The notes under the pieces were generated by a model that did not search any database, was not told the DNA's origin, and saw nothing but the letters and a program-made list of their open reading frames with translations. A program made the position numbers and the translations under genes. From Candidatus Stoquefichus sp. SB1 (GTDB taxonomy: Bacteria > Bacillota_I > Bacilli_A > Erysipelotrichales > Coprobacillaceae): a DNA stretch of 64,000 bases. Position 1 is the stretch's first letter; the number at the start of each line of letters is the position of its first letter. Shown here piece after piece: positions 8,476 to 60,640 of the stretch. The stretch is taken from the NCBI RefSeq assembly GCF_001244545.1, contig NZ_LN852696.1:1-64000 (forward strand), read 5' to 3'.

Positions 8476-9231
8476 ATGAAAAAAGAATGGTTTAAGGAAT
8501 ATAGTGAGTGTTTAAATAGGGATATGGAGTTTATGGTATATGGACATGCTGGTCAACCTATTTTAGTCTTTCCAGCGCAGGATGGACGTTATTTTGATTT
8601 TGAAAATTTTGGGATGGTACAGACTGTTGAACATTTAATTGATGAAGGACGAATTCAATTGTTTTGTTGTGATAGTATTGATCCAGAATCTTGGTCTGGT
8701 AAAGGACTTGATCCTAGACATCGTACATATATGATGGAACAATGGTATTATTATATTGTTAATGAATTGGTACCAAGAATTTTTGAGATTAATTCTTATG
8801 GTAATGGTGGCGGATATGCTGATGGTATTTTTACAACAGGATGTTCTATGGGAGCGACGCATGCTGCTAATTTTATGTTTAGAAGACCAGATATTTTTAA
8901 GGGAACAATTGCATTAAGTGGATATTATGATAGTGATTTATTCTTTGATGATTATCATGATGATATTATTTATCGTAATTCACCTATTCAATATCTTCAT
9001 GGGATGAGTTATGATCATCCTTATGTTGATATGTATCGTCATTGTAAGATTGTTTTATGTTGTGGTCAAGGAGCCTGGGAAGATGATATGATTAGAAGTA
9101 CTGCACGCATGAAAGAACTTTTAGAATATAAAGATATTCCTGCATGGATTGATTTTTGGGGAAATGATGTCAATCATGATTGGGATTGGTGGCAAGTACA
9201 ATTTCCATATTTTGTAGAAAGGGTGATATAA
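8476..9231 (+). CDS. Esterase D-type alpha/beta hydrolase
   Basis: 251 residues. The nucleophile elbow GCSMGA (Ser near residue 122) fits the putative esterase (PF00756-like) family. A C-terminal WGNDVNHDWDWW supplies a plausible catalytic His, and the Asp is likely in the preceding strand. No signal peptide is visible, so it acts in the cytoplasm. It lies 11 nt after the first ATP-grasp gene and one base before the second, all with ribosome sites, so the three are one operon. It could hydrolyse, cyclise or transfer the ligase product (inference). Substrate unknown. Confidence 0.88.
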   Translation: MKKEWFKEYSECLNRDMEFMVYGHAGQPILVFPAQDGRYFDFENFGMVQTVEHLIDEGRIQLFCCDSIDPESWSGKGLDPRHRTYMMEQWYYYIVNELVPRIFEINSYGNGGGYADGIFTTGCSMGATHAANFMFRRPDIFKGTIALSGYYDSDLFFDDYHDDIIYRNSPIQYLHGMSYDHPYVDMYRHCKIVLCCGQGAWEDDMIRSTARMKELLEYKDIPAWIDFWGNDVNHDWDWWQVQFPYFVERVI

Positions 9232-9232
9232 T

Positions 9233-10441
9233 ATGAATTTAATTTTTATTTCACCACACTTTCCTCTCTATTTTTATAATTTTTGTGATCGATTAAAAGC
9301 TCGTGGTGTGAATGTTTTAGGAATTGGTGATGCAAGTTATGATAATTTGCCATATCATACTAAAATTGCTTTAACAGAGTATTACAAGGTTGATGATTTA
9401 GAAGATTATGAGGAAGTTTATCGTGCATGTGCATATTATACTTGGCATTATGGTAAGATTGATTGGATTGAATCACAAAATGAATATTGGTTAGAATTGG
9501 AAGCAACATTACGTAATGAATTCAATGTAACAACTGGAACAAAGATTCAACATATGGCACCAATGAAATATAAATCAAAAATGAAAGATGTTTATAAAGC
9601 AGCTGGAATACCTACTGCACGTTTTAGAATGGTGGATGATTATCAGGCAACAAAAGCTTTTGCGAATAAGGTAGGTTATCCTGTTATTGTTAAACCGGAT
9701 AATGGTGTGGGAGCAAGTTCTACTTATAAATTAAAAAATGATGATGAGTTAGATTATTTCTTTGCAACAAAAGATCCAGTGATTCAATTTATTATTGAAG
9801 AGATGGTACCTGGACATGTGGAGACTTTTGATGGTATTACAGATAAAGATAAAAATATCTTAATAGCGACAAGCCATGTTATGTTAAATTCAATCATGGA
9901 TAATGTCAATGAAGCCTCTGATACAGCCTTTTATTCACAGCCAGTTGAAGGTTTGGATATTGCAGAGGTTGGAAAAAGAGCAGTCGAAGCTTTTGATACA
10001 AGAAGTCGTTTTTTCCACTTTGAATTCTTTCGTTTAGATGAGGATAGAGAAGGATTAGGTAAAAAGGGTGATATTGTTGGCTTAGAAGTGAATATGCGTG
10101 CTCCTGGCGCTTATATGCCTGATATGATGAATTTTGCTTATAATGTAGATGTTTATACAATATGGGCAGATATGATTAAGTATAATCAATGTTATTATGA
10201 TATTAAAAGAGAATATTGGGTTGCTTATACAGGTCGTCGTGATGGTATTTGGTATATGTATAATTATGATCAGATTAGAGCAGTTTATGGTGAAAACATT
10301 GCTTTAGAAACAGATGTACCAGAAGCTTTATCAGCAGCTATGGGAAATCATGTTTTCATTGTCAAATCACGTACTCAAGAAGAACTGTTTGCAATGATTC
10401 GCTATATACTCAAACGAGAAGATGGAACTGATTGGATGTAA
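9233..10441 (+). CDS. ATP-grasp ligase, second paralogue
   Basis: 402 residues, with the same architecture as the ligase at 7283. The N-terminal domain begins MNLIFISPHFPLYFYNF, the nucleotide loop is VIVKPDNGVGA (about 154), and the metal site is GLEVNMRAPGA (about 286). The C-terminal portion (YTGRRDGIWYMYNYDQIRAVYG) diverges most from the first paralogue (YCGRRDYLHYQHTHNEVMEKY), suggesting different acceptor substrates. Its ATG overlaps the ribosome-binding region at the end of the hydrolase gene. It is the last gene of the triad, and a hairpin lies 56 nt downstream. Confidence 0.88.
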   Translation: MNLIFISPHFPLYFYNFCDRLKARGVNVLGIGDASYDNLPYHTKIALTEYYKVDDLEDYEEVYRACAYYTWHYGKIDWIESQNEYWLELEATLRNEFNVTTGTKIQHMAPMKYKSKMKDVYKAAGIPTARFRMVDDYQATKAFANKVGYPVIVKPDNGVGASSTYKLKNDDELDYFFATKDPVIQFIIEEMVPGHVETFDGITDKDKNILIATSHVMLNSIMDNVNEASDTAFYSQPVEGLDIAEVGKRAVEAFDTRSRFFHFEFFRLDEDREGLGKKGDIVGLEVNMRAPGAYMPDMMNFAYNVDVYTIWADMIKYNQCYYDIKREYWVAYTGRRDGIWYMYNYDQIRAVYGENIALETDVPEALSAAMGNHVFIVKSRTQEELFAMIRYILKREDGTDWM

Positions 10442-48743: not shown

Positions 48744-50768
<2,025 letters not shown>

Positions 50769-50912: not shown

Positions 50913-51788
50913 ATGCTTATTACACAAAAAATGGAACTTATGAAATTAAGTTCCAATGAAGAATTAATCTATCAGTTCATTCTCAACCATCCTGAACAAT
51001 TAGAAAGATTAACAATTAAACAAATAGCATCACAAATTTATGTTTCACCTGCTTTATTTATTGTCTTTGCAAAAAAATTAGGATATTCAGGGTGGAATGA
51101 ATTTAAACAGGATTTTATAGAAGAAAGAAAATATTTAGATAGTCATTTCCAACAAGTGAATCCTAATAAACCATTTTCTTCTCAAGATAATATTATGAAT
51201 ATTGCCTATAAAATTGCGACTTTACAAAATGAGACTATTCAAGATACTCTTCAACTCATTCATCATGATAATCTTCAAAAAGCCACTCAATTATTAAAAA
51301 AGAGTTCACATATTTATCTTTTTGGAAGTAATATGTCTTATATAGCATCACAGGAATTTTTTTATTCTATGAAACGATTAGGTGCTCATATTGAATATAA
51401 TATCGATCCAATTGAACAAGTTTTTCAAGCTCAAATAATGCCACCACAAAGTGTAGCTATAGTCATTTCCTATACAGGTGAAACTGCACATGTTTTAAAA
51501 ATCTGTCAGGATTTGCATCGACAGAAAGTTCCTATTATTACAATTACTGGTTATGGTGAAAATACAGTTATGCAATATAGTGATGTAGCCTTATATATGA
51601 GTACAAGAGAAAATGTTCATACAAAAATAAGTACATTCTCTACAAGACAAAGTATTCATACGATTTTAGATATTCTTTATAGTTGTTATTTTGCATTTCA
51701 TTATCAAGAAAATTATGAAAAAGTTGTTGAAATAAATAACTCTGTTGAATATAGACGTTTTTCTTCTAATACAAAAATCAATCAATGA
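50913..51788 (+). CDS. RpiR/MurR-family regulator with SIS domain, locus 3
   Basis: 291 residues. HTH_6 (about 1-78) with IASQIYVSPALFIVFAKKLGYSGW and SIS domain (about 120-250) with YLFGSNMSY and VISYTGETAHVLK. It responds to a phosphosugar and probably controls the divergent GH1/YczE operon, and possibly the PTS operon downstream. A perfect hairpin terminator follows. Confidence 0.93.
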   Translation: MLITQKMELMKLSSNEELIYQFILNHPEQLERLTIKQIASQIYVSPALFIVFAKKLGYSGWNEFKQDFIEERKYLDSHFQQVNPNKPFSSQDNIMNIAYKIATLQNETIQDTLQLIHHDNLQKATQLLKKSSHIYLFGSNMSYIASQEFFYSMKRLGAHIEYNIDPIEQVFQAQIMPPQSVAIVISYTGETAHVLKICQDLHRQKVPIITITGYGENTVMQYSDVALYMSTRENVHTKISTFSTRQSIHTILDILYSCYFAFHYQENYEKVVEINNSVEYRRFSSNTKINQ

Positions 51789-51831: not shown

Positions 51832-51856
51832 GGACAAAATAAATTTTGTCCTTTTT
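51832..51856 (+). terminator. Terminator of the rpiR gene, locus 3
   Basis: GGACAAAAT-AA-ATTTTGTCC followed by TTTTT. Confidence 0.9.
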
Positions 51857-51883
51857 CTATTTATTCCATATTGGAATAAATAG
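51857..51883. promoter_or_regulatory. Perfect 12-bp inverted repeat, candidate operator
   Basis: CTATTTATTCCA and TGGAATAAATAG flank TAT. It lies 15 nt before the -35 box of the next operon, suggesting an activator or repressor site. Confidence 0.65.
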
Positions 51884-51897
51884 AGCCTGAATCGGAA

Positions 51898-51926
51898 TTG
51901 CTATGAAAACGCTTTTATTTTAAAAT
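51898..51926 (+). promoter_or_regulatory. Promoter with cre-like site of the ceramidase-like/PTS operon
   Basis: TTGCTA (51898-51903), 17 bp, TAAAAT (51921-51926). TGAAAACGCTTTTA (51904-51917) matches 13 of 14 cre positions and fills the spacer, so CcpA repression is likely. Confidence 0.75.
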
Positions 51927-51952: not shown

Positions 51953-52993
51953 GTGGTAATTGATGCCAACATGTATTGGTTTGATGAACATATCTTTGAG
52001 GAATCACAAGAAACTGAACGTTTTTTATCAGAAATTCCTATTAGTTATGGAATTCATGGATACATGAAAGAAAATGAAGATCAATTCAAACAGATTGTCA
52101 TTGAAAAACCCAAAGGCTATCAAAATTTAAATTATTTGGAAGGAGACTATTTATTAGAAAAACAACTTGCTGATATGGATGCAGGTAATGTTCAAAAAGC
52201 CATTCTTAAATTACCTGGGTGTCATGAATGGATGTCATTAGATATGTGTAAAAAGTTTAATGATGGAATGGCTGATTATGTTAGAAAAAGTCAAGGTCGA
52301 TTGGTTGCCTTAGCAGTTGTTCCACCATTAGCTAGTGAAGCATGTTTTCAAGAAATTGAGAGATGCAGAAATGAATTAGGAATGTCAGGTGTACAATTAT
52401 GTGCACATTATGGAAATCATTATTTAGATTCGGATATTTTTAATGACTTTTTTAAAAAACTGAATGAACAAAAAACAACAGTTTACATTCATCATACACC
52501 TGTTCCTGTACAATATGACTGTTTATATGATTATAATAATCTAAGACGTTCATATGGTCGATGTGTTGATCAAACAACAGCTATCTGTAGAGAATTATTT
52601 AGTGGTTTTTTTGATAGGTTTCCTAATCTTACATTTGTTCATTCCATGCTGGGTGGAGGATTCTTTGCCATTGAGAATATGCTTTTTCCACCTCATGCAA
52701 AGACTACTGAAAAGGTAGCAAGATTTGAGAGTAATCAAGATAATGTTTGGAAAGTGTATAAAGAACATATTTATTTTGAAACATCTCATGCACAGCCATG
52801 GGGAAAGCAACAGTTAGAATGTGCGATTCAAGTATTAGGTGCAGATCATATTATTTTTGGTAGTTCTTATCCAGTTAGGAGAGAATGGTTATTAGAAGGT
52901 GCAGAGTTTATAAAGATGTTAGATATTAGTGATGAAGAAAAAGACATGATTTTATATAAAAATGCATGTCAAATCTATCATATTGATGAATAG
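51953..52993 (+). CDS. Amidohydrolase-2 (ACMSD-like) TIM-barrel protein
   Basis: 346 residues, GTG start at 51953 after GGAGGGAG; the ATG two bases earlier meets a stop at once. Family traits of amidohydrolase-2 enzymes are GRLVALAVVPP (about 117), TVYIHHTP (about 180), LTFVHSMLGGG (about 225) and IIFGSSYPVRREW (about 300). The metal-binding HxH at the N terminus is replaced (IDANMYW), and the FGSDYP Asp is Ser. It may have lost hydrolase/decarboxylase chemistry or use another mode. First gene of the operon. Confidence 0.82.
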   Translation: MVIDANMYWFDEHIFEESQETERFLSEIPISYGIHGYMKENEDQFKQIVIEKPKGYQNLNYLEGDYLLEKQLADMDAGNVQKAILKLPGCHEWMSLDMCKKFNDGMADYVRKSQGRLVALAVVPPLASEACFQEIERCRNELGMSGVQLCAHYGNHYLDSDIFNDFFKKLNEQKTTVYIHHTPVPVQYDCLYDYNNLRRSYGRCVDQTTAICRELFSGFFDRFPNLTFVHSMLGGGFFAIENMLFPPHAKTTEKVARFESNQDNVWKVYKEHIYFETSHAQPWGKQQLECAIQVLGADHIIFGSSYPVRREWLLEGAEFIKMLDISDEEKDMILYKNACQIYHIDE

Positions 52994-53004
52994 GAGATAT
53001 AAAA

Positions 53005-54276
53005 ATGAATGAAGATAAGTCATTAAAGGTTGGTTCGGCAAAAGAAAAATTATTATTTCCAAAAGATTTCTTCCCTGTTGAAAATTTTAGTTATATACAT
53101 GATGATCTTTATGTTAGAGTTCTCTATTTAGAAGCTAACCAACCATTTATTCTCCTTTCATTTGAATTAACATCATTAAGAGAATATGTTATAGAAGAAT
53201 TAAAAAAACGTATTTCTAAACAGACAGATATACCATTCAAGAACATTTGGATATGTGTAACACATACTTTTTCAGCACCTCATTCTCGTTCTGTAGATGC
53301 TCTTGAAAAAGGTGATCTCACTATAAAACAAAAAAATAAAGTCTTCTGTGATATTCTCTATAGTTCAGCAAAAAAAGCAGTGACTCTTGCTATTCAACAA
53401 AAGCAAATTGTATATGTTGGCTTTGGACACGGATTTTGTTCAGTCAATGTGAATCGAGATATTTCTACAAAAGATGGCTGGTGGTTAGGGGCTAATGATT
53501 TAGGAATATCTGATAAAAGCGTACCCATTATTAAATTTGAAAATAAACAGCATCATACAATTGCTCTTCTTTATAGTTATGATGTTCAATCCTCCATTAT
53601 GGAGGGGTCTTTACAAAAAGATGGACGATATGCTGTTACAAGTGATCTTACTGGTGTAACAAGTCAATATATAGAAAGCCAATATGATGATTGTGTAGCA
53701 ATGTATATTGTAGGAGCTGCTGGAGATCAGGCACCATTGTTTCAGGCTAAACATCATATTATTGATAAAGAAGGACAGATACAAGTCACAGATATACATG
53801 AAGATGGTTTTGTGTTTGTTAAAGCTTTAGGAACAAAATTAGCAACGCAAGTGATTAGGGCATGTGAAAGAATAAAAACAGTTCCATATATGGGAAAAAT
53901 TCAGAATATTCAAACTCAGTTTATTTGTCCAGGACAGAAAATAAGAGATAGACAAGAATTGAAACCCACTCACCACTATAATTATTTGAATGATCAAGAT
54001 CAGATGGTAGGAGTTGAAATCATTCAATTTGGTTATATTGTGATAGTAGGGGTTCAACCGGAATTATCTAGTGTAACTGCTATGGATATAAGAAAACAGT
54101 CTCCTTTTCCTATAACTATGATTTTAACAATGGTTAATGGAGGAGCAAAGTATATGCCAGATCAGACTTCGTATGATCGAATCACATATGAGGCTATGAA
54201 TTCAAAATTTGCTAAAGGATCAGCTGAAATGCTGACTGAACAAATAGTGAAAACACTAGAAAATATAAAAATATAA
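53005..54276 (+). CDS. Neutral-ceramidase-like protein, degenerate active site
   Basis: 423 residues, related to the N-terminal domain of neutral/alkaline non-lysosomal ceramidases and paralogous to 54287. At positions where ceramidases have THTH, AVHGT and GDVS it has VTHTFSAPH (about 95), SYDVQSS (about 197) and GAAGDQAP (about 240): one His of the first pair, the second His and the Ser are missing. The Glu (QPELSS, about 350) and Tyr (KYMPD, about 385) remain. No signal peptide. It may support the intact paralogue. Confidence 0.75.
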   Translation: MNEDKSLKVGSAKEKLLFPKDFFPVENFSYIHDDLYVRVLYLEANQPFILLSFELTSLREYVIEELKKRISKQTDIPFKNIWICVTHTFSAPHSRSVDALEKGDLTIKQKNKVFCDILYSSAKKAVTLAIQQKQIVYVGFGHGFCSVNVNRDISTKDGWWLGANDLGISDKSVPIIKFENKQHHTIALLYSYDVQSSIMEGSLQKDGRYAVTSDLTGVTSQYIESQYDDCVAMYIVGAAGDQAPLFQAKHHIIDKEGQIQVTDIHEDGFVFVKALGTKLATQVIRACERIKTVPYMGKIQNIQTQFICPGQKIRDRQELKPTHHYNYLNDQDQMVGVEIIQFGYIVIVGVQPELSSVTAMDIRKQSPFPITMILTMVNGGAKYMPDQTSYDRITYEAMNSKFAKGSAEMLTEQIVKTLENIKI

Positions 54277-54286
54277 GGAGGAAAAT

Positions 54287-55528
54287 ATGAGAATAGGACA
54301 TGCAAGATATTGTATTTCACCAAAGCAGGAGTTTTATTTGATTGGATATCGAAGTGATAACCGAATGTATCCAGCCATTGGAATTCATGATGATATTTAT
54401 TGTCAATCATTATTGTTTGAAAATAATGGTCAAATGTTATTTCTCTTTTCAGCAGATTTTTTAGAGTTTGAAGAAGAAATGGCAGAGGATGTGAAGACAT
54501 TGCTGGCAGATCAGTTTGGCATTGAAAGAGATTGTGTTTTATTAAGTGCAACACATAATCATTCATCTGTCGTCTCTTATCACAAAAGTTGGTATACAGG
54601 TAAATTTAATCAAGATTATTATGATTATTTGATAAAAATGATTATAAAGAGTTTCCAAGATTGTCTTGAAAGTTTACAAACAGCATATGCAAAGTATGGG
54701 AAAGCAAACATTTATGGATATTATGGAAATCGTAATCATCCTGGACAACCAGCAGACAATGAGGTGATTGTTGTCAAGTTTTATAATGAAAATCATGAGG
54801 CTTTTGCAGGCATTGTGAATTGGGCTGTACACTCTACAGTCATTAGTGGTGAAAATACTTATTTAACAAGTGAATTAGCAGGACATGTTTGTCAATGTTT
54901 GTATGATGAATTCAAGTTTTATCCAATTATGATGGTTGGGGCGGCTGGAGATTGTAGTAATCGCAATGAAAGACAAGGTAATGATTTCATAGAACTTGAG
55001 AGAGTTGCACCATTATTAGCATCTGATATTGCACAAATTGATGTGAGTAAAACAATACAATTAAAAGAAATAAAATGTCAAACTCTATTTCATACAATTC
55101 ATCATGATATGTCATTTGTTCATGATGAGTTAAGAGATGAAATTATGAACATGGAAAAACAGTTAGAAAGAGAAAATCAACAATCTAAAAAAGATTTTCT
55201 TATGAAAAAGATAAATAACCTTAAAACACAATTAGATATTCATGCTTTTCATCTTGATGCTAAAGCATCTGTTATCCAATTAGGAGATTTGCAGATTTTT
55301 GTCTTTCCAGGTGAATTAGGGTCTGCTTTTGGTATTCAAATGAAGAAAGAGTGCCCTGTATTAGGACTCATTTGTGGATATACAAATGGATATTATGAAT
55401 ATTTTATGCCAGAAAGTGAATATGGTTTATCTTTTGAAACAATGGGTTGTGCTATTCCCAAAGGGGAACCGGAAAAACTGGTACAAAAGTTTATACAAGC
55501 TTCAAAGTTATTGAATGGAGAGGGTTAA
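54287..55528 (+). CDS. Neutral-ceramidase-like hydrolase, intact active site
   Basis: 413 residues. Zn and nucleophile motifs of the ceramidase fold are kept: SATHNHSS (about 93), NWAVHSTVISG (about 185), GAAGDCSN (about 220), PGELGS (about 340) and NGYYEYFMP (about 370). It has no signal peptide, so the substrate is intracellular, e.g. a phosphorylated amide or ester brought in by the PTS (inference). Starts 10 nt after its paralogue. A coiled insertion (about 270-310, ENQQSKKDFLMKK) is unusual. True ceramide activity is unproven. Confidence 0.8.
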   Translation: MRIGHARYCISPKQEFYLIGYRSDNRMYPAIGIHDDIYCQSLLFENNGQMLFLFSADFLEFEEEMAEDVKTLLADQFGIERDCVLLSATHNHSSVVSYHKSWYTGKFNQDYYDYLIKMIIKSFQDCLESLQTAYAKYGKANIYGYYGNRNHPGQPADNEVIVVKFYNENHEAFAGIVNWAVHSTVISGENTYLTSELAGHVCQCLYDEFKFYPIMMVGAAGDCSNRNERQGNDFIELERVAPLLASDIAQIDVSKTIQLKEIKCQTLFHTIHHDMSFVHDELRDEIMNMEKQLERENQQSKKDFLMKKINNLKTQLDIHAFHLDAKASVIQLGDLQIFVFPGELGSAFGIQMKKECPVLGLICGYTNGYYEYFMPESEYGLSFETMGCAIPKGEPEKLVQKFIQASKLLNGEG

Positions 55529-55529
55529 A

Positions 55530-57458
55530 ATGGAAGAAAAGAATGTTTTATTAGCTCCTGTGGATGGAAAATGTGTTTCTTTAAACGAAGTTCCTGATGA
55601 AATGTTTGCTGAAAAAATCATGGGAGATGGAGTTGCTTTTCGTTATGAAGGAGATGCAATCTATGCACCGTGCTCAGGAATAGTAAGGGTTGTTGCAAAT
55701 ACAAAACATGCTATTGGAATTCAAAATGAGGAAGGACTGGAAGTTCTTATTCATGTGGGTGTGGATACTGTTAATTTAGCTGGTAAGGGTTTTGAAACAC
55801 TTGTTGTACAGGGGCAAAAGATTAAACAAGGGCAGCAAATCCTTAGAATTGATAGAGCATTTATGGATCAGCAGCATATCAATCTCATAACGGCTATGGT
55901 TTTAACAAATTACAAAGATTTTCAATATGATATATTAAGTCTTGATCAGAACGTTGTTCATAATCAAACTGAAATCATTGAATTTTCTAAAAATAAAATA
56001 AAAAAAGTTGAGGAAAAGAAGATGAAATATAAGAAATTATGTGAAGATATTATTCAATATGTTGGAGGACGTGAGAACATTATTAATGTGACACATTGTA
56101 TAACACGTTTACGATTTAAACTGAAAAATGAAGACAAAGCAGATACCAAAGCACTCAATCAATTAGATGGTGTTATGAAAATTATTCAGACAGGTGGGCA
56201 ATATCAGGTTGTGATAGGGACACATGTTGATGATGTTTATGATGAATTGGTTGAAATTGGTCAATTAAATAAGGAAGTGCCATTGGATATAGATGAAGGA
56301 GATACTGAACAAAAGAGTATTCTCTCAAGATTTCTAGTTTTAATGAGTGGTATTTTCCAACCGATATTAAGTATTTTAATGGCAAGCGGGATGATCAAAG
56401 CTTTGTTGAAACTTGTTGTTTTAGCAGGTTGGTTGAATGAAACAAGTGGAACTTATACAATTTTAAATTCTCTTGGAGATGCATTATTTTATTTCTTCCC
56501 AGTTGCAATTGGATGGTCAGCAGCTAAGAAGTTTGGTATTAAAGAGATATATGGAATTACATTGGGTGCGTGTTTAACATATCCTGCCATTGTCTCATTA
56601 TCTTCTGCAGAACCACTATATACACTTTTTGCTGGAACAATTTTTGAAGCAAGTGTTTTTACAGAATTTTTAGGAATACCTGTTATTCTACCAGGGGCAG
56701 GATATGCAAGTTCTGTCATTCCAATTATTTTAATTGTCTTTGTAGCAGCAAAAATCTTTAAATTCTTAAATAAAAAATTACCTGCAATGATTAGATCTTT
56801 CTTTGTTCCATTCTTAACATTAATTATTACTCTTCCACTAGCTCTCATTGTGATTGGACCAATAGCGATGTTTATTCAAGACTTATTGGGAGAATTAGTT
56901 CAATTAATCGTTGGATTAAATGCCGGAATAGCTGGTTTATTCTTAGGAACATTCTGGTCAGTCTTGGTAATGTTTGGATTACATATGCCTATCATTATGA
57001 TGTTCAATGTCAATATTTCAACTTATGGTTATGATATCATAAATCCATTGATTTTCTCAGGTGCTTTAGCAACTATGGGTGCGGTTTTAGGCGTTATTAT
57101 CCGTACAAAATCAGTTCAAGAAAAAAACATTGCAGTTCCTGCCTTATTTTCAACTTTCTTTGGTGTCAATGAACCATCATTATATGGAGTCTTAATTCCT
57201 AGAAAGAAAATCATGTTTAGTTGTTTCTTATCTGCTGGAATTGGTTCAATGATTGCTGGTTTCTGTGGAGCAAAATTATATGCATTTGGAGCTTCAGGTC
57301 CTTTAGGATTACCTTGCTTTATTAATCCTAATGGTATTGATATAGGATTTATTGGATTATGTATAGGGGCAGTTGTTAGTTTTGCTTTAGCATTAATTGC
57401 AGCTTTAATTATTGGTGATAAAAAGGATGCAAATGCAATTCAATTAGGAAAAGAATAA
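55530..57458 (+). CDS. PTS permease with IIA-IIB-IIC domain order
   Basis: 642 residues from MEEKNVLL; the earlier ATG at 55515 overlaps the GGAGAGGG ribosome site. Domain order: EIIA (1-150, NTKHAIG and LIHVGVDTV active site), linker (about 150-168, charged), EIIB (about 168-250, Cys in THCITRLRF) and EIIC (about 265-640, GVNEPSLYG). BglF-type permeases have IIB-IIC-IIA, so this is a permuted fusion. It imports and phosphorylates a beta-glycoside-like sugar. Last gene of the operon; no GH1 inside it. Confidence 0.92.
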   Translation: MEEKNVLLAPVDGKCVSLNEVPDEMFAEKIMGDGVAFRYEGDAIYAPCSGIVRVVANTKHAIGIQNEEGLEVLIHVGVDTVNLAGKGFETLVVQGQKIKQGQQILRIDRAFMDQQHINLITAMVLTNYKDFQYDILSLDQNVVHNQTEIIEFSKNKIKKVEEKKMKYKKLCEDIIQYVGGRENIINVTHCITRLRFKLKNEDKADTKALNQLDGVMKIIQTGGQYQVVIGTHVDDVYDELVEIGQLNKEVPLDIDEGDTEQKSILSRFLVLMSGIFQPILSILMASGMIKALLKLVVLAGWLNETSGTYTILNSLGDALFYFFPVAIGWSAAKKFGIKEIYGITLGACLTYPAIVSLSSAEPLYTLFAGTIFEASVFTEFLGIPVILPGAGYASSVIPIILIVFVAAKIFKFLNKKLPAMIRSFFVPFLTLIITLPLALIVIGPIAMFIQDLLGELVQLIVGLNAGIAGLFLGTFWSVLVMFGLHMPIIMMFNVNISTYGYDIINPLIFSGALATMGAVLGVIIRTKSVQEKNIAVPALFSTFFGVNEPSLYGVLIPRKKIMFSCFLSAGIGSMIAGFCGAKLYAFGASGPLGLPCFINPNGIDIGFIGLCIGAVVSFALALIAALIIGDKKDANAIQLGKE

Positions 57459-57674: not shown

Positions 57675-58886
57675 ATGAATAAACAAAAAAGCGAAAAATT
57701 ATGGACAAAGAATTTTATTATTATCATCATTATTAATTTCTTTGTATTTTTAAATCACTTGATGATTTTATCAACTTTTCCATTTTTTATTTCATATCTC
57801 GGTTATTCCGATAGTATGTCAGGAGCTTGTGCAGCAATTTTTTCACTAATTGCAGTTCTCTCAAGACCATTTATTGGATGGATGTTGGATAATGGAAAAA
57901 GAAAACAGATATTATTAGTGGGATTATGTGGTATGGTTCTGATGCCTATGGGCTATATCTTTATTTACACGACCTTAGTATCTATTGGACTGGTTATTTT
58001 GCTGAGGATGGCCCATGGCTGCTCATTGGCATGTTCAAACACATCAACTTCAACAATAGCAACAGATATTATTCCAAAGTCGAGATTTTCTGAAGGAATG
58101 GGTATGTTTGGGATGGCAACAGCTTTAGCTACAGCATGTGCACCAACTATTGGAGAAACTCTTATGAATATCAGTTTTGAACTTTTGTTTGTTGTTGCAA
58201 CTGTTATTATGGTGATTTCATTAGTTCTTTTTTCATTATTAAAAACACCAAAGATAGAAATTACAAAAAAACCATTAAAAGTAAAAAACTTAATTGATAA
58301 AAATGCACTACCAGCATCATTTGTTGTTCTTATTTTTCTTTTGACTTATGGGTCGTTAGAGAATTATATTTTAAAATTTGCTTCTGAAGAAGCTGCAATA
58401 ACAATTTCAGGAGGACTTTATTTCACAGTGATGGCGATTATGTTACTTTTGACAAGAATTTTTATTGGAAAAGTAGCTGATCAAAAGGGAGAAGCTATTT
58501 TCGTATATAGTTGTAATGCCTTTATGCTGGTGGCTCTCATATTATTAGCTTTCATTCCAAACAATATAACATTCCTATTGTCTGCTGTTTTATCTGGCTA
58601 TGCTTTTGGAGGATTAGAACCTTCTTTACAGGCTATGGCAGTCAGTATTGCTCCCCTTGAAAGAAGAGGTGCTGCTAATTCAACATTTCTTTGTGCTTAT
58701 GATATAGGTATTGGTATTGGTGGTGGAATAGCAGGCGTACTTATAGATATTTTAGGATATCATTATATGTTTGGAATATTATCAATCGCAAATATTATTT
58801 CTATTATTGCTTATATTATTTTTGGTAAAAATCATCCATCATCATTAACATTAAGGATAAAACAACAAAATCAAGAATCTATATAA
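57675..58886 (+). CDS. MFS transporter
   Basis: 403 residues from MNKQKSEKLW with GGAGG at 57664-57668; the longer reading runs through the leader hairpin. Twelve membrane segments, MFS loop GWMLDNGKRKQ after TM2 and RMAHGCSLACSNTSTSTI (about 115) typical of drug/metabolite MFS transporters. Next to a LysR regulator and a cyclase-family enzyme, it may export or import a small aromatic metabolite (inference). Substrate unknown. Confidence 0.88.
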   Translation: MNKQKSEKLWTKNFIIIIIINFFVFLNHLMILSTFPFFISYLGYSDSMSGACAAIFSLIAVLSRPFIGWMLDNGKRKQILLVGLCGMVLMPMGYIFIYTTLVSIGLVILLRMAHGCSLACSNTSTSTIATDIIPKSRFSEGMGMFGMATALATACAPTIGETLMNISFELLFVVATVIMVISLVLFSLLKTPKIEITKKPLKVKNLIDKNALPASFVVLIFLLTYGSLENYILKFASEEAAITISGGLYFTVMAIMLLLTRIFIGKVADQKGEAIFVYSCNAFMLVALILLAFIPNNITFLLSAVLSGYAFGGLEPSLQAMAVSIAPLERRGAANSTFLCAYDIGIGIGGGIAGVLIDILGYHYMFGILSIANIISIIAYIIFGKNHPSSLTLRIKQQNQESI

Positions 58887-58981: not shown

Positions 58982-59860
58982 TTATTTATGCATTTGGATA
59001 GAATTAATAAAATGTCTAGCAGGTTGTGAGAGAACAACATCTTTTTTGTAGTAGATTTTAATCTGAGTTGATATTTTAGGATAAATATCAACTAATGAAA
59101 TTTTTGGGCTTGAGAGATACTCAATTGGTTTTTTCATAAGTAATGAGACGCCCATTCCTTTTTCTATAAGATCAATGATATTTTCTGCTCTTTGCCCAGT
59201 ATAAATAATATTTGGTGTGAAACCAGCTTTTTGACATTCTTGTTGGCATAGATTATATAGTAATGATGTTGGCTGCAAAAAAAGAAAATCTTCAAAACGA
59301 AGTTGTGTTAAAGAAATTTGTTTTTCTTGTGCTAATTGATGATATGCTGGTAAAACAGCAACCAGCTGATCCTCTTCATAAGCAATTTTTGCAAATTCAT
59401 CGTTATTTTCATCTTCATCACGTATAAAAGCGAGTTCGCATTTATTATGTCTTAAAAGTTCTTTAAGTTCAGCAGATTCACCCTCAATAAGATTTACATA
59501 ATAACTTTTATTTTCTCGTTTAAACTTAAGTATCTCATCAGTAATATGATAAGGGGCCATGACTGGAATAGAGCCTATTGTAATAGAATGTTTAATATTT
59601 TCTGATTGATTGTTTAAGGCGGTTGTATATTGATATTGTAGACTTGCGATTTGCTTTGCATATCCTAATAATATTTTACCATATTCATTGAGGTGAACTT
59701 TGCGTGTTGTTCGATCAAATAATGGATAACCCATTTCATTTTCTAGAACTTTTATATGTTTAGATAAAGAAGATTGAGATATAAATAAAGAATCAGAAGC
59801 TTCTAAAAAATTTTCTGTTTCAGCTAAAACAACAAACTCTCTTAAGTAATTTATTTCCAT
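58982..59860 (-). CDS. LysR-family transcriptional regulator
   Basis: 292 residues. HTH_1 (1-62) with ENFLEASDSLFISQSSLSKHIK and ENEMGYPLFDR, then the LysR substrate-binding domain (about 90-290). Divergent from the cyclase gene at 60083, the classic LysR arrangement; the intergenic region contains long palindromes. Effector unknown. The neighbouring MFS gene could also be a target. Start ATG 59860 follows AGAGGTGA. Confidence 0.94.
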   Translation of the reverse strand: MEINYLREFVVLAETENFLEASDSLFISQSSLSKHIKVLENEMGYPLFDRTTRKVHLNEYGKILLGYAKQIASLQYQYTTALNNQSENIKHSITIGSIPVMAPYHITDEILKFKRENKSYYVNLIEGESAELKELLRHNKCELAFIRDEDENNDEFAKIAYEEDQLVAVLPAYHQLAQEKQISLTQLRFEDFLFLQPTSLLYNLCQQECQKAGFTPNIIYTGQRAENIIDLIEKGMGVSLLMKKPIEYLSSPKISLVDIYPKISTQIKIYYKKDVVLSQPARHFINSIQMHK

Positions 59861-60082: not shown

Positions 60083-60640
60083 ATGTTTTATGATTTAACT
60101 TTAAAAATAACACCACAATTGATGAAAGATGCTAATGGAAATGAAAAAAAGTCATTAGTAGGACATCTTGGAACACATTTTGATGTGATGAATAAAGAAT
60201 TTCCGTTATCTTATTTTCATTTACCAGCAATTATTTTTAATGTTTACAATAAAGAAGAGATAGATTGTAATGATATTGATTTCAATCAAATACAAGAAGG
60301 AATGTTTGTAGTATTTGCAACTGGCTTTATTGAAAAAGTAGGTTATGGTCATAAAGATTATTTTTCTCACCATCCACAATTATCAAAGGCATTAATTGAA
60401 CAGCTTATTCAAAGAAAAATTGCTATTATAGGAATTGATAGCCCTGGTATTCGAAGAGGGAAGGAACATACACTAATGGATCAATATTGTGCAGATCATC
60501 ATGTTTTTGTGGTTGAAAATCTATGTCATCTTGATATAGTTCTAAATCAGAAAAGTTTTCAATCTTGTTATATCAATACATATCCAGTGAATTATAGTGA
60601 TATGACAGGATTACCATGTCGTGTTGTTGCGGAGTTATAA
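60083..60640 (+). CDS. Cyclase-family (KynB-like) hydrolase
   Basis: 185 residues of the metal-dependent cyclase/kynurenine formamidase superfamily (PF04199-like). The first metal motif is GHLGTHFDV (about 28), and the second is GIDSPGIRRG (about 120). The usual HxGTHxDxPxH is incomplete at the later positions (VMNKEFPLSYF). It could open or close an amide/lactone ring of a small metabolite. Divergent from LysR and followed, without gap, by a MarR gene. Confidence 0.75.
   Translation: MFYDLTLKITPQLMKDANGNEKKSLVGHLGTHFDVMNKEFPLSYFHLPAIIFNVYNKEEIDCNDIDFNQIQEGMFVVFATGFIEKVGYGHKDYFSHHPQLSKALIEQLIQRKIAIIGIDSPGIRRGKEHTLMDQYCADHHVFVVENLCHLDIVLNQKSFQSCYINTYPVNYSDMTGLPCRVVAEL

Follow-up and report, generated by a model that had tools for sequence, protein, structure and literature searches.

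Neutral ceramidases such as those of Pseudomonas aeruginosa (2zws) and human (4wgk), grouped in Pfam family PF04734, are secreted or membrane-bound where they have been characterized, and carry a signal peptide and a C-terminal domain. Two kinds of operon built around the sugar phosphotransferase system (PTS) offer further points of comparison: bgl-type operons, which combine the permease with a GH1 or GH4 glycosidase and an antiterminator, and amino-sugar operons with NagA or ChbG (YdjC). Here we analyse a 64,000-nucleotide stretch of Candidatus Stoquefichus sp. SB1 (contig NZ_LN852696.1, positions 1 to 64,000; hereafter 'the window') in which an operon with a promoter of its own runs AH–CerA–CerB–PTS, that is, an amidohydrolase-like barrel protein, two neutral-ceramidase-fold paralogues and a IIA-IIB-IIC permease (Table 1). 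This layout had been proposed in a sequence-only reading, and all of its frames are open; the same reading held the combination of ceramidase fold and sugar PTS to be undescribed, and a literature search likewise found no publication on such an operon. Our leading, if still tentative, interpretation is a LysR-controlled, probably glucose-repressed system for the uptake and deacylation of an acylated or amidated glycoside.

Linkage of the ceramidase-fold genes to transport genes

A search with an AH alignment through approximately 85,000 species genomes returned 80 named loci, of which 20 carry AH, CerA and CerB together with a bgl-type PTS gene. The hosts of these full operons include Konateibacter, Breznakia pachnodae, Clostridium neonatale, Streptococcus gallolyticus, S. 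orisratti, Enterococcus hulanensis, Oenococcus oeni, Collinsella and several metagenome-assembled genomes (MAGs), and the four-gene unit recurs in Bacilli, Clostridia and Coriobacteriia; LysR–AH–CerA–CerB–PTS is also present on an E. raffinosus megaplasmid. A bgl-type PTS gene stands at 20 of the 23 AH loci that have CerB versus one of the 57 that lack it (Fisher P = 1e-14), a value that overstates the strength of the association, as do our other co-occurrence P-values, since related and phylogenetically non-independent loci are counted as independent.

The association extends beyond the bgl type. CerB relatives occur in 128 of 316 genomes of the window's order, the Erysipelotrichales, and at 31 of 49 sampled CerB-like loci of the order a mannose-family EIID gene lies on the same strand within 7 kb, where approximately 0.025 per locus would be expected by chance (from our own tally of approximately 3.5 EIID genes per genome). 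In a Paenibacillus copy a lactose/cellobiose-family IIC is placed between AH and CerA, and in a coriobacterial copy an EIIBC gene directly follows CerB. CerB is linked to PTS of three superfamilies: bgl, lactose/cellobiose and mannose. The coupling of ceramidase-fold proteins to PTS import, the central claim of the sequence-only reading, is borne out by this recurrence across classes and PTS types, and for CerB it withstands the refutation that this reading had set for itself, consistent secretion of the homologues or their occurrence without PTS partners. Because the pairing is common across genomes, it is better seen as a type of PTS catabolic operon that has escaped notice than as a unique oddity.

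Three observations concern CerB-like loci elsewhere. Clusters ordered IIB-IIC-IID-CerB-IIA-HAD-NIF3 (L065, L066, L017, L018), with a mannose-family PTS, represent another ceramidase-fold PTS system in the Erysipelotrichales, more common than the first. One CerB-like gene is read as three open frames (L023, approximately 8800-10030, genome G001), apparently a pseudogene or assembly error. A 706-residue CerB–IIA fusion frame (L016, 12783-14903, genome G024) was rejected as probably an indel error in a MAG, because AH and PTS are broken on the same contig.

YdjC genes near some of these loci point to a different substrate: an amino sugar bearing an N-acyl group, or an amino-sugar glycoside, which CerB would N-deacylate once it has been imported as the phosphate, in a parallel to NagA or ChbG. 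The proposed logic would be the same in the two systems, PTS import followed by intracellular deacylation of a sugar phosphate, although the deacylase fold of the amino-sugar operons is unrelated to that of CerB. In S. gallolyticus the gene immediately upstream of AH encodes a ChbG-family (YdjC) deacetylase, a frame of the same size holds that position in S. orisratti, six CerB-like operons of the order contain YdjC (in five of them mannose-family PTS genes are present or a IIA is linked), and a Nitratireductor plasmid operon combines ceramidase-like, NagB-like, SIS and Amidohydro_1 genes with a sugar ABC transporter. Most species, the window's included, nevertheless have no YdjC adjoining the operon, and no nagA- or nagB-like family is prominent among 85 scanned neighbours of AH; we regard an amino-sugar substrate as unlikely, if well worth keeping in view.

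CerA goes with AH and not with the PTS. Many Clostridia have AH–CerA without a PTS, beside Opp-type ABC transporters, MATE exporters, MBL hydrolases and esterases, so that the PTS is not the sole import route that had been envisaged. The operon in the window can then be seen as two modules joined, which accounts for its two distant paralogues. AH and CerA do not form an obligate pair, a candidate rule that we rejected as several genomes have AH without CerA. In a sister species of the same genus (G033, L104, 8970-9952) remnants of a broken AH (71% identity over residues 2-64) and of CerA (71%) are present, and the operon appears to have decayed there. A family of approximately 530-590 residues, without a Pfam or NCBIfam match, repeatedly adjoins the AH operon (L123, 14482-16242; L180, 5707-7299).

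The ceramidase-fold proteins and the barrel protein

CerB matches Ceramidase_alk (PF04734) at 57.9 bits versus a cut-off of 32.1, and its AlphaFold model (pLDDT 91.4) superposes on neutral ceramidase with a Z-score of 38.9 and a root-mean-square deviation of 2.8 over 374 residues; neutral ceramidases are the only significant full-domain PDB matches for the CerA and CerB models, lower Foldseek rows being insignificant or weak matches to a common arrangement. The zinc ligands H90, H182, E343 and Y372, equivalent to His97, His204, Glu411 and Tyr448 in P. aeruginosa numbering, are kept in 19 of 19 sequences, as are the equivalents of His99 and Arg160 in a profile alignment, and CerB is on this basis predicted to bind metal and act as a zinc hydrolase. 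It differs from the characterized enzymes in that the Tyr460 equivalent is Phe and in that both paralogues are short (413 residues in CerB, 423 in CerA), 17-19% identical to neutral ceramidases and found in PTS-linked operons. CerB aligns only to residues 5-490 of 2zws and lacks the C-terminal domain.

A hydropathy test, the one method applied, found no signal-like N-terminus in 73 AH, 51 CerA, 25 CerB and 54 order-level relatives (a single borderline hydrophobicity score came from a protein whose N-terminus is not signal-like). This agrees with the earlier proposal that the hydrolases lack signal peptides, and AH, CerA and CerB are predicted to be cytosolic. Fold and zinc ligands might suggest genuine ceramidase activity of CerA and CerB, with sphingolipids or glucosylceramides as substrates, but CerB has neither a signal peptide nor more than the N-terminal catalytic domain of enzymes that reach 646 and 688 residues, there is no sphingolipid gene among the neighbours and, to our knowledge, PTS permeases do not import such hydrophobic lipids, which together make a lipid substrate very improbable.

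The two paralogues are not the equivalent hydrolases that the sequence-only reading took them for, as CerA lacks part of the zinc and catalytic site. CerA has no Pfam match at E up to 1, PF04734 included; it was found with CerB as query (25% identity), and its model (pLDDT 95.6) has only neutral ceramidases as best Foldseek matches. H87 is kept, and F89 and Q195 replace His99 and His204, changes that characterize the family (32 of 34 sequences for each) while the equivalents of H97, R160, E411 and Y448 persist. These losses suggest either a partner without catalytic activity or an enzyme whose chemistry differs. Between the CerA and CerB genes the spacing runs from −4 to +49 bp, an overlap or a short gap that would fit a heteromer.

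AH matches Amidohydro_2 (E 7e-26, 92 bits versus a 26.4 cut-off) and is nearest to aromatic-acid decarboxylases (E 1e-20 to LigW2). It shares a barrel family with ACMSD-type decarboxylases such as LigW and gamma-resorcylate decarboxylase, but throughout the AH family the metal Asp, as aligned to LigW, is replaced by Ser (FG[ST]SYP), and the first-strand metal motif becomes NxY (IDxNxY in at least 66 of 73 proteins, its equivalence to the usual motif being read by eye). To judge from these alignments AH lacks the ACMSD-type metal ligands despite its barrel match.

The kinship to decarboxylases raises the alternative that an aryl or acyl beta-glucoside is imported and GH1 removes the sugar first, with AH, CerA and CerB confined to the aglycone, an aromatic ester or amide that is afterwards exported. 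The regulator is of the LysR type; FUSC-type, MATE and MFS transporters and feruloyl- or polyhydroxybutyrate (PHB)-type esterases recur close by; an Agrobacterium relative has a PHB-type esterase and a tannase in its neighbourhood; and S. gallolyticus, O. oeni and deer-gut bacteria are among the hosts. The neighbour-family census around AH, in which EstA/PHB-depolymerase-like, BD-FAE, FUSC and MATE families recur, gives weak hints of substrate. The missing decarboxylase ligands count against this alternative, as does the far tighter association of CerB than of CerA or AH with the PTS, which suggests that CerB acts on a phosphorylated compound; we consider it rather unlikely.

Promoter, regulators and flanking genes

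Upstream of AH, the −35 hexamer of a sigma-70-type promoter overlaps the GAATTG of a LysR-type element, and a site resembling the catabolite-responsive element (cre) occupies the spacer (Table 1). The arrangement GAATA-N12..20-GAATTG occurs in 23 of 84 AH upstream regions versus 11 of 4000 random 360-bp windows, and the element is found at 19 of the 23 CerB loci. An alignment of eight operons shows a dyad ending in GAATA at a near-constant distance from GAATTG and a TTG/TAxxAT promoter whose TTG and TAxxAT columns are invariant. A LysR gene flanks the PTS end in seven operons, the window's included (57-75% identity to the window's protein at six other loci, 40-48% at others), the window gene being assigned to LysR through a cluster with a Pfam-tested member. 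An adjoining LysR gene and a dyad box upstream of the promoter, the marks of a LysR-regulated operon, are both present. A second box for a wider LysR regulon was rejected, with one exact site in the organism's own genome.

The description of the operon as cre-bearing holds in that a palindromic site with a single mismatch lies within the promoter, and one-mismatch sites also precede AH in two streptococci; the window, however, contains 13 cre-like matches versus 7.4 expected, so the site is weak evidence by its sequence alone. Activation by LysR and repression by CcpA would be consistent with these elements.

Table 1. Positions of the operon, its control elements and flanking genes in the window
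Feature	Position	Strand	Remarks
GH1	49362..50765	-	6-phospho-beta-glucosidase, flanking
RpiR	50913..51788	+	regulator, flanking
Intrinsic-terminator-like hairpin	51832..51851	+	between RpiR and AH
LysR-type element	51861-51879; 51874-51900	+	palindrome TTATTCC-N5-GGAATAA; GAATA-N16-GAATTG; upstream of AH
Sigma-70-type promoter	51898..51926	+	-35 TTGCTA, 17-bp spacer, -10 TAAAAT
cre-like site	51903..51918	+	ATGAAAACGCTTTTAT; one mismatch, palindromic, between -35 and -10
AH	51953..52993	+	Amidohydro_2 (ACMSD / 5-carboxyvanillate decarboxylase-like) barrel, by alignment without canonical metal ligands
CerA	53005..54276	+	neutral-ceramidase-fold paralogue, degenerate zinc site
CerB	54287..55528	+	neutral-ceramidase-fold protein, intact zinc site
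PTS permease IIA-IIB-IIC	55530..57458	+	beta-glucoside (Glc superfamily) type; frame opens 55515
MFS transporter	57675..58886	+	between PTS and LysR genes
LysR	58982..59860	-	regulator, operon-linked

GH1 and RpiR, which the sequence-only reading had grouped with the operon, do stand next to it, but neither is conserved with the unit. The terminator-like hairpin between RpiR and AH would end the RpiR transcript, leaving AH–CerA–CerB–PTS as a separate unit with its own promoter, and RpiR and GH1 are probably units apart from it; the conserved regulator is LysR, and GH1 is near just two of the 20 full operons. That this is an ordinary beta-glucoside operon under RpiR, with GH1 as its enzyme and the ceramidase-like genes present by chance, is suggested by the two genes immediately upstream, yet the terminator, the conservation of the four-gene unit across classes without GH1 or RpiR, and the 4 to 66 GH1 matches per genome in sampled relatives, at which a GH1 nearby is often to be expected, make it scarcely credible. 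GH1 is hugely expanded in two genomes, with 56 matches in the sister species G033 and 66 in G053. Compared with bgl-type operons, the glycoside system favoured here shares the PTS family and the character of a carbon-source operon with a cre-like site, but differs in its ceramidase- and amidohydrolase-fold proteins, its LysR regulator and the conservation of the unit without a glycosidase; IIA comes first in several species.

The permease domains EIIA_1 (PF00358), EIIB (PF00367) and EIIC (PF02378) all exceed the Pfam cut-offs, and the whole protein falls below the curated cut-off of the beta-glucoside PTS IIABC model TIGR01995 (591.6 versus 614.7 bits). Its start is probably at 55530, which has a better ribosome site than 55515 and matches the lengths of orthologues. 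No other operon locus has a homologue of the MFS transporter, a possible exporter whose position is not conserved. Divergent from LysR lies a PF04199 cyclase gene (kynurenine-formamidase-like, 60083-60640), which is overlapped by the next gene in line, judged by eye to be MarR-type regulator-like.

A proposed route for acylated glycosides

We hypothesize that the beta-glucoside-family PTS would import a glycoside bearing an amide- or ester-linked, perhaps aromatic, acyl group and phosphorylate its sugar, and that CerB would then cut the acyl bond in the cytosol. CerA, translationally coupled, could serve as partner, substrate-binding subunit or enzyme of altered chemistry, AH may process the released or imported moiety, and general GH1 6-phospho-beta-glucosidases would complete sugar breakdown; LysR would sense a pathway compound and activate from the box at 51861-51900. 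Both the substrate and the order of these steps are put forward in this conditional sense.

Several points weigh against this route. No member of the AH, CerA or CerB families has a characterized substrate or activity, and deacylation is extrapolated by analogy from the ceramidase fold. The conserved unit holds no dedicated glycosidase, and AH may be found without CerA. The frequent pairing of AH–CerA with Opp-type ABC transporters and no PTS indicates that this half of the operon can do without phosphorylation. The glycosylated amides or acylated sugars put forward in the sequence-only reading are reasonable candidate substrates. As to substrate class, we lean towards acylated or aryl glycosides, to which the recurrent esterases, the FUSC, MATE and MFS transporters, LysR and the decarboxylase-like AH point, over N-acylated amino sugars, to which ChbG in the streptococci and mannose-PTS clusters points.

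It is conceivable, though we hold it somewhat less firmly than our overall interpretation of the operon, that CerB, its degenerate paralogue and an amidohydrolase without a metal site form a new intracellular route for deacylating a PTS-phosphorylated glycoside; the cytosolic ceramidase-fold proteins of Bacillota and Coriobacteriia would in that case make up a broad class of sugar-phosphate deacylases linked to the PTS, and not lipid enzymes. Default annotation labels proteins of the neutral ceramidase family as lipid enzymes, and here they accompany sugar importers in gut and food bacteria. With the substrate identified, many genes would be annotated correctly, and it could become clear how gut Collinsella, enterococci, streptococci and Oenococcus draw on acylated plant or host glycosides.

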